Shown: piece by piece, positions 1 through 1,556 of the stretch | Layout of the letters: each line of letters starts with the position of its first letter | Position numbering within the stretch: the first letter of the stretch is position 1 | Assembly: GCF_900163755.1 (NCBI RefSeq) | Contig: NZ_FUKI01000094.1 | Span: 1-64,000, forward strand | Length of the DNA: 64,000 bases | Source: Crenothrix polyspora | GTDB lineage: Bacteria > Pseudomonadota > Gammaproteobacteria > Methylococcales > Methylomonadaceae | Direction: 5' to 3' | Position numbers and translations under genes: made by a program | Notes under the pieces: generated by a model | What the model was told of the DNA's origin: nothing | The model's database searches: none | Seen by the model: only the letters and a program-made list of their open reading frames with translations

Positions 1-25
1 ACGTGAAACTTGTTTATGGGGGCTG

Positions 26-1165
26 TTATTCGACATTTAAAGAGTGACTGAGTACTAGTTTTCTAGTTTTTGTTTCTGTAATATTTGCGAGGGTATCTCC
101 ACGCTCAATAGTAAAAGAAGTTCCATCAATCGTAATGCGATATTCTTTAAACGTGTTTACGGATGGATTTGTATTATTAGAATCTGGACTGAGACCAAAG
201 CTACCTGAGCCATGCAGATAAAGACCAGCCCAATAATTTGATTCTCCGGCCGAAATATAATCCCCTGTTTTTGTATCGACAAGATCGATATGGGTATCTC
301 TGCCCGAACCTAATCCAGCAAACCTTGCTTCGATTACAATCTTGTTGCCGGAAAAAGTTACCTTATTCTCAGTGTTGGCGGTTCTCCAAGCACCAAAAGT
401 TACTGTGCCACCTGATACAGTTATAATCCCTGGTGTTTGGCTTGGTAGATTAAATTGTCCAGGAGACCAAGAGGTACTTTGAAGCTCTGTTCCGTTAAAT
501 TCGTCTGAAAATTGAGCATTACTGGTATAAAGCGCCTGCACATCCATATCGGTTAGGGCGCGATTATAAAGGCGGACATCATCTAATGCTCCTTTGAAAG
601 GCGACTCCCAAGAAAATCCTTCTTTTGAGAAGCCAATGCGCAAGTCATCATTATTGTTATTGAATGAGCTATAACTATCAGGCTGTTCAATGTTTAATTT
701 ACCATTGATGTAAATAGACATAACGTGTTTTTTTCGATCAATCACGCCAACATAATGCAGCCATTTTCCTTTTTCAATCACTTTTGTACTATATACCTGA
801 TGTGCACAACTACCATCACCTGCTGGAGTTTGATGAAAAACAAAATTATTATGCACATAAAATGCGTATTCTCTATTGTTTAAGCAAACAGGAATACCTA
901 CACCACCTTTATGAATGATTGTTGAAACAGGATTAATAAAATCATCCACGCGAATCCAAAAGGATGCGGTTAATTGGTCGACTGGATTCAAGGATTTAGA
1001 GCTAGGAACGTTGATGTAACTTTTTCCGTCAAATTGTAATGCTGTATTGCTAACACCTGCGACACAGCTTAGGTTGCCGTTAATTGTTCCGTTGTTTTGA
1101 TTGCCACTTGTATCTTTTACCGTACTGTTATTTACAGCGCAATCATCAAAATTCCAATTGGCCAT
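26..1165 (-). CDS. Secreted LamG (concanavalin A-like) domain protein, likely out of frame with its start
   Basis: The protein looks like a LamG/concanavalin A-like lectin-glucanase fold (about residues 10-205: WNFDD near the start, DDVRLYNRAL near the domain end), followed by a second beta-rich region (215-379). The methionine at 1165 is probably internal. Upstream, in frame, the strand encodes a signal peptide (RFIVGLLAILIACTV, then an ANA cleavage-like site; LIAC could also be a lipobox) with no ATG in that frame. The natural start, ATG at 1332 or 1326 with AAGGAA before it, lies beyond the heptamer repeat and is out of frame with the gene. The stop falls near a repeat-family end at the window edge. 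The ligand is unknown; a carbohydrate- or surface-binding role is only a family inference. Confidence 0.7.
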   Translation of the reverse strand: MANWNFDDCAVNNSTVKDTSGNQNNGTINGNLSCVAGVSNTALQFDGKSYINVPSSKSLNPVDQLTASFWIRVDDFINPVSTIIHKGGVGIPVCLNNREYAFYVHNNFVFHQTPAGDGSCAHQVYSTKVIEKGKWLHYVGVIDRKKHVMSIYINGKLNIEQPDSYSSFNNNNDDLRIGFSKEGFSWESPFKGALDDVRLYNRALTDMDVQALYTSNAQFSDEFNGTELQSTSWSPGQFNLPSQTPGIITVSGGTVTFGAWRTANTENKVTFSGNKIVIEARFAGLGSGRDTHIDLVDTKTGDYISAGESNYWAGLYLHGSGSFGLSPDSNNTNPSVNTFKEYRITIDGTSFTIERGDTLANITETKTRKLVLSHSLNVE

Positions 1166-1256
1166 TAACCCCGTGGTTAAGTCGGCATTAGCTGTGTTGC
1201 TAACGGTACAGGCAATCAGTATTGCCAGTAAGCCAACAATAAAACGCCATCGCTCA

Positions 1257-1314
1257 GGTGCTTGGTGCTTGGTGCTTGGTGCTTGGTGCTTGGTGCTTGG
1301 TGCTTGGTGCTTGG
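1257..1314. repeat. Heptanucleotide tandem repeat (CTTGGTG)n
   Basis: There are seven perfect CTTGGTG units (1261-1309) plus partial units at both ends. The repeat sits between a good start site (ATG 1332/1326) and the signal-peptide reading frame of the LamG gene. Because the unit is 7 bp, each gain or loss shifts the frame; three units encode PSTKHQA in the open frame. At the present length the ATG frame ends after a short peptide. One more unit, or two fewer, would join it to the signal peptide. Confidence 0.9.
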
Positions 1315-1556
1315 ATTAGAAACCATTGTCATGGTAAGTTCCTTGTTTAAGGGCTTTTTTATTTTGGCAACAAACCTGACACAGTACGGCTTAAATTGGC
1401 GTGATTTATTGCGTTCGGGCGGGTCAAAAACTGTAAAGTTTTTTCGCTGAGCGATTGTAACGTAACTGTTATTTAATTCATACAGCTAAACTCAGTTTTT
1501 TAGATTTTATTTGCGCTGTGGGGGTGTTTGGCTGTATTTTTCATGACCGCCAAAAA

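Follow-up and report, generated by a model that had tools for sequence, protein, structure and literature searches.

A heptanucleotide tract, (CCAAGCA)n, at the start of a gene in the window (the whole 64,000-nt stretch of DNA analysed here) is likely a translational simple-sequence contingency locus that switches an exported modular protein in the genus; the copy found here is in the OFF state and apparently interrupted. In the proposed mechanism, slipped-strand mispairing in the tract, which lies between the start codon and the signal peptide, would change n. When n is divisible by three, the ATG would be joined in frame to the signal peptide and to an exported modular protein composed of a LamG domain and/or a second domain, a choice-of-anchor D/Ig-like domain and a C-terminal hydrolase, while any other n would give a short dead-end peptide. 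The tract would encode the n-region of the signal peptide and be removed on export; since the array forms this n-region, the mature protein should be the same at any array length. Across the genus, meaning Crenothrix and those closest to it, one and the same leader and tract precede proteins of differing domain sets. Slippage, reversibility and export are what we infer from the arrangement of the locus.

Repeat array and reading frames in the window

The window lies on contig C166 of a 3.92-Mb draft genome of 180 contigs (G000). It was compared with Crenothrix polyspora RSM_CP2 (G001; contig C68, NZ_FUKJ01000154.1) and with a MAG labelled Methylobacter tundripaludum Bin_16_1 (G002; contig C65, SBAV01000550.1), both contigs agreeing with these records in every base. 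The features of the locus are as follows:

1333..1521, minus strand: conserved upstream region including AAGGAA at 1339-1344 (DNA match in G001:C68, G002:C51 and G002:C84)
1315..1332, minus strand: start codon and first six codons, ATGACAATGGTTTCTAAT (identical in G000, G001:C68, G002:C51 and G002:C84)
1257..1314, minus strand: CCAAGCA tandem array, eight full units plus CC (TRF and script count)
1184..1256, minus strand: signal-peptide codons in the gene frame, ERWRFIVGLLAILIACTVSNTANA (from translation; signal peptide called by eye)
536..1030, minus strand: LamG domain (Laminin_G_3, PF13385; E=1.2e-24)
57..514, minus strand: second domain, unnamed, common to G002:C65 (no Pfam match above the cut-off)
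1..54, minus strand: end of a multicopy mobile element, interrupting the gene (18 places in the genome)

Analysis of the window with TRF revealed a single perfect array of a 7-bp unit, present in 8.3 copies at 1257-1314 (100% match), and a script count on the minus strand gave eight full CCAAGCA units. No second heptamer is repeated at least four times within the 64,000 nt, all 31 start positions belonging to the one 58-base array, and no heptamer reached four repeats in 50 mononucleotide shuffles of the window. ACAAGGAACTTACC on the minus strand leads into ATGACAATGGTTTCTAAT (1332-1315), after which come the eight units and CC (1314-1257). The first-pass annotation had described an ATG at 1332, a second ATG at 1326, an upstream AAGGAA and 7 to 8 heptamer units after the ATG; all of these are present, the AAGGAA at 1344-1339 and the units being eight, full and perfect. 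Its count of 167 nt from 1332 to the Met at 1165, with a remainder of 2 on division by three, is arithmetically correct.

Translation from the ATG at 1332 ends after 38 codons. The long frame opens after the stop at 1318-1316 and reads the array as STKHQAP repeats, followed by ERWRFIVGLLAILIACTVSNTANA and the LamG domain. Between this stop and 1165 the gene frame contains neither ATG, the absence of which had been claimed before, nor GTG or TTG (ORF lister, first start after the stop), and the Met at 1165, its first listed start, lies behind the signal peptide. For 18 + 7n to be a multiple of three, as the frame requires, n has to be one too, and with n=8 the ATG at 1332 is out of frame with the signal peptide and LamG. 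As in simple-sequence contingency loci, the array is a perfect tandem repeat whose unit (7 bp) is not a multiple of three, and it is located inside the coding frame, between the start codon (1332) and the protein body.

Upstream of the array gene, at 1557-2966 of the window, lie a DUF2442 gene (just below the cut-off) with a DUF4160 gene and a BrnA/BrnT toxin-antitoxin pair. In G001:C68, too, a BrnT/BrnA-like pair lies immediately upstream of the array gene.

Array, leader and signal peptide in the genus

A search with three array units covered 151 genomes of the family and recovered the array only in the three of the window's genus, with a single locus in the window's genome. AMO/PmoA-type genes were present in all four genomes tested (the window's, those of two genus mates, and G027) and in none of 14 control genomes, indicating that the window's organism is a methanotroph. 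Over window positions 1230-1450, which comprise the leader and the array, the DNA match is 97% in G001:C68, 95% in G002:C51 and 88% in G002:C84, and over 1436-1521 it is 92, 86 and 88%, respectively. These upstream 86 bases were also examined as a repeated promoter in five genomes, where only two partial matches (G001:C327) were found besides the four array loci; elsewhere in the window, weak similarity recurs in a few spots, and no sigma-70-type site was found in 1200-1700. Two similar exported-looking proteins on contig C45 of the window's genome (at 21244 and 22898; L069) have a MISN start and the leader with one and two mismatches, and no array; the one that was scanned contains an Lcl_C domain (PF07603).

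Three arrays could be read through. In G001:C68, n is 12 and the frame is in phase, with 966 open codons before the contig ends; in G002:C84, n is 6 and the frame is again in phase, with 611 open codons up to the contig end; the window's array, with n=8, is out of frame. That two of the three are in frame is uninformative by itself. Repeat number thus varies among relatives, with in-frame and out-of-frame states, in a comparison made between species only and with one or two loci per species. The translational ON/OFF layout proposed in the first-pass annotation, OFF at the assembled length, is borne out by the relatives, whose arrays of 12 and 6 units are each in frame, and the fixed repeat number that the annotation had named as evidence against switching was not observed (n = 8, 12 and 6 between species). 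At each of the four loci where the 3' side could be read, the distance from the last full unit to a TGG is nine bases, though the bases differ, and this constant spacing means that each locus needs n divisible by three.

Contig G002:C51 ends and G002:C65 begins inside the array, with exactly 60 bases in common (eight units plus CCAA), and the two are presumably neighbouring contigs. A short-word assembler would stop at such an array if it held at least nine units or was mixed. A broken array of this kind, together with the draft state of the window's genome (180 contigs), raises the question of whether the window's unit number is an assembly error and its gene really in frame. We consider this highly improbable, as the window's contig runs through the whole array, whose 58 bases fit within ordinary short reads.

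Comparison of the codons that follow the array revealed that the signal peptide of the window and that of G001 have the same residue at 22 of 22 codons, with four base differences, all at third positions. Against G002:C65 there are six base differences, five of them at third positions, and 21 of 22 residues are the same. Change that is silent only against G001 and mostly at third positions against G002:C65 indicates that this frame is translated in the genus, and since no ordinary start lies between the array and the signal peptide, translation has to pass through the array. ATT and CTG codons do occur in the signal-peptide frame, and translation could in principle be independent of the array, from a rare start such as these or by a frameshift, at any n. 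Such a start would, however, cut into the signal peptide, and the array-free G001:C338, a relative of the C84 protein, begins with an ordinary ATG that precedes the same hydrophobic stretch, in a plain start reading MPLVFNYKHPAQTFKHWQFIVGF; we therefore give array-independent translation very little credence. Inspection of the starts of 18 further LamG loci with printed frames found an ordinary start near the signal peptide to be clear in seven, all of other genera (L009, L013, L017, L020, L023, L026 and L029); the remaining 11 are unclear, cut, from within the genus itself, or were translated in the wrong frame.

Modular proteins and the apparently interrupted copy

The LamG domain of the window gene matches PF13385 at 87.6 bits against a cut-off of 27.6 and is the only match to this model in the window's genome. 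For the second domain, structure prediction without an alignment gave a mean pLDDT of 35.1, too low to be of use. Comparison of this domain with that of G002:C65 over 153 codons showed 92.2% identical residues and a dN/dS of 0.086 (NG86) or 0.103 (YN00). The G001:C68 protein is composed of LamG, a choice-of-anchor D/Ig-like domain and a class 3 lipase (PF01764, E=5.9e-14), and the G002:C65 protein of the second domain, choice-of-anchor D, DUF11 and an alpha/beta hydrolase (PF07819, E=1.9e-6, with weaker others), with no LamG. The G002:C84 protein contains LamG and a bacterial Ig domain (Big_9) before the contig ends; a reading by eye of its end as a subtilase was dropped, as none appeared in the Pfam and NCBIfam results. 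LamG, which is present in the window gene (26-1264), is missing in G002:C65 (L067) between a near-identical signal peptide and the second domain, and the difference reads as a clean domain gain or loss. Pattern scans for close relatives of the window protein, run with six query peptides of which at least two differ even in the nearest relative, gave 26 stretches in the GTDB genome collection and four in viral contigs, and none was confirmed.

The stop of the gene frame at 26-28 is located inside the end of the mobile element. The first-pass annotation had let the gene begin its span at 26, and the stop there is real; as a natural gene end it fails, lying within a multicopy element. Eighteen places in the window's genome, the window's included, match at least 58 bases of this element end at 98-100%, and the printed ends abut CTAG. 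At least nine of the 18 copies lie within three bases of a contig end. The element end is often seen at contig ends, and the element probably causes many of the assembly breaks. It may be IS630-like, an identity for which a DDE transposase of that family and a TA or CTAG target would be expected; its transposase was read over 73 residues, with a weak HTH_23 match below the cut-off, and the DDE_3 match of the window's genome is on C89, without a link to the multicopy element.

Contig C2 of the window's genome starts with a different element end. After some 120 bases that resemble a stretch of C10, the same protein family picks up again, only a few residues from where it broke off. The C2 protein contains choice-of-anchor D and DUF11 together with a phosphoesterase domain (PF04185, E=4.9e-66), and scores 196.8 bits with the phospholipase C model TIGR03396 (cut-off 580, thus below it); C2 is the only match in the window's genome to the first part of the query used. 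C2 may carry the rest of the window gene, and the element ends on C166 and C2 may belong to one element; the window gene appears to have been cut by a mobile element. Judged from these domain matches, the window gene is the front of a modular, predicted secreted protein whose last module differs between loci, being a class 3 lipase, an alpha/beta hydrolase and, in the window's genome, probably a phospholipase C. The earlier label of a surface LamG protein describes at most this front; it does not fit the whole gene, which in the relatives continues into Ig-like domains and a hydrolase.

Because the gene runs into the element at base 54, a correct frame alone would not restore the whole protein, and an ON length in this genome would yield only a truncated fragment of LamG and a beta-sandwich. 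For the same reason, selection for switching in this strain is doubtful. The window copy may simply be a pseudogene, disrupted by the element and only later left out of frame by drift of the array, and we put this at a little short of an even chance. The element end at 1-54 holds the stop of the frame, and the other half of the gene is apparently on C2 behind the opposite element end; against this, the dN/dS of about 0.09-0.10 in the second domain relative to G002:C65 means that decay, if any, is recent. A pseudogene in the window's genome would not conflict with a genuine switch in other members of the genus. Under the contingency-locus reading, the window copy, with n=8 (OFF) and an interrupted gene, is probably decaying. 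The slipped-strand mechanism of the first-pass annotation stands for the genus, while here a correct n would give a truncated fragment at best.

The heptamer in other bacteria and known repeat switches

Genome contigs of many phyla contain four units of CCAAGCA, in no fewer than 118 stretches. Arrays of at least six units account for 59 of 121 loci in the genome and viral scans together, and two of these belong to this genus (L202 and L173). An origin of the array as viral or mobile sequence was considered and rejected: three viral contigs hold at least four copies, against two and none for two reordered heptamers of the same composition. The wide occurrence of the repeat in unrelated genomes, at many places away from gene starts, would fit a neutral repeat that expanded by accident, its frames kept or lost by drift and without switching. 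This explanation is improbable, however, since the position and the leader are the same in all three genus genomes, two long open frames are in phase, and the 22 codons that follow differ from G001 only silently.

The CCAAGCA array reads STKHQAP in whatever frame and contains no stop in any of them; it would suit the n-region of a signal peptide because no frame holds a stop and the peptide is positively charged. The arrays outside the genus were judged by eye from 30 sense-side entries, leaving out downstream frames of fewer than 80 codons. In the Orbaceae strain ESL0721 (L136, n=15), the frame of an upstream ATG runs across the array and into a stretch resembling a secretion signal, and no ordinary start intervenes. 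An Urechidicola MAG (L114, n=8) is in frame into a secretion-signal-like stretch if a start codon inside the hydrophobic stretch is ignored. In a Melainabacteria MAG (L144 and L113), the array lies directly before a prepilin motif (PF07963, E=1e-5) and is broken across two contigs with a 66-base overlap. In Gilliamella bombicola (L111), the array, with n=11, puts the ATG out of frame, and the protein may start later. The L136, L111 and L114 proteins gave no Pfam match at E<=0.01, and 16 opposite-side entries contained no case of ATG, array and secretion signal in sequence. Unrelated bacteria may have recruited CCAAGCA more than once to serve as a phase switch, placed after the start codon and ahead of the secretion signal, in Crenothrix hydrolases, an Orbaceae exported protein, an Urechidicola lipoprotein-like protein and a melainabacterial prepilin-like protein. 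We hold this to be rather unlikely. The choice of cases was made after looking, and most of the arrays listed are not of the switch kind.

Several described systems resemble the array gene. One is neuO, the capsule O-acetyltransferase gene of E. coli K1 on prophage CUS-3, which has a heptanucleotide repeat in its 5' coding region and is translated at full length when the repeat number is divisible by 3 (PMC13001214). Both genes thus have a heptanucleotide repeat in the 5' coding region and a frame restored by multiples of three, whereas neuO differs in its heptamer (AAGACTC), its enzyme and its host, an E. coli pathogen. The neuO repeat length is cited as affecting NeuO activity (PMC13001214), while the array here should be lost with the signal peptide. 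In Neisseria opa, coding repeats in the 5' leader-peptide region shift the frame by slipped-strand mispairing (PMC3960869); the array gene likewise carries its repeats in the 5' region encoding a leader peptide, but the opa unit is a pentamer, CTCTT, and the products are outer-membrane adhesins rather than modular hydrolases. The hmw1A and hmw2A genes of Haemophilus influenzae have promoter-region heptanucleotide repeats that grade the transcript level (PMC8262952, PMC2651432) and share with the array gene a heptanucleotide repeat tied to a surface protein. The array here is not a promoter repeat of this type, being located after the start codon, in a coding frame that is translated in relatives. 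Xanthomonas and Nostoc possess GGGAATC-type heptamer repeats with many intergenic, G-rich copies per genome (PMC4692102); these are likewise heptamer arrays in environmental or plant bacteria, in contrast to the single locus at a coding 5' end described here. Reports on repeats of 6-9 bases were called rare in that 2015 paper (PMC4692102).

In the open-licence PMC literature, judged by title or the start of the abstract, no such switch was found in methanotrophs, Crenothrix or Methylomonas, and nothing on methanotrophs was found for slipped-strand or repeat phase variation of lipase or phospholipase. Among the matches listed from the same literature, none linked a CCAAGCA repeat with bacterial phase variation by title. 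Set beside the known systems, the proposed switching mechanism is one already known, and the host is new.

Most known cases of ON/OFF switching by repeats are from bacteria that live with a host. The Crenothrix group comprises filamentous, sheathed methane oxidisers described as important in lakes (PMC5563964). The layout of such a switch is found here in a methane oxidiser, before proteins predicted to be exported, whose modules include a lipase, an alpha/beta hydrolase and probably a phospholipase C. If the switch operates as proposed, natural populations would be mixtures of cells differing in their exported enzymes, and phages, grazers or surface attachment may be what gives rise to such mixtures.
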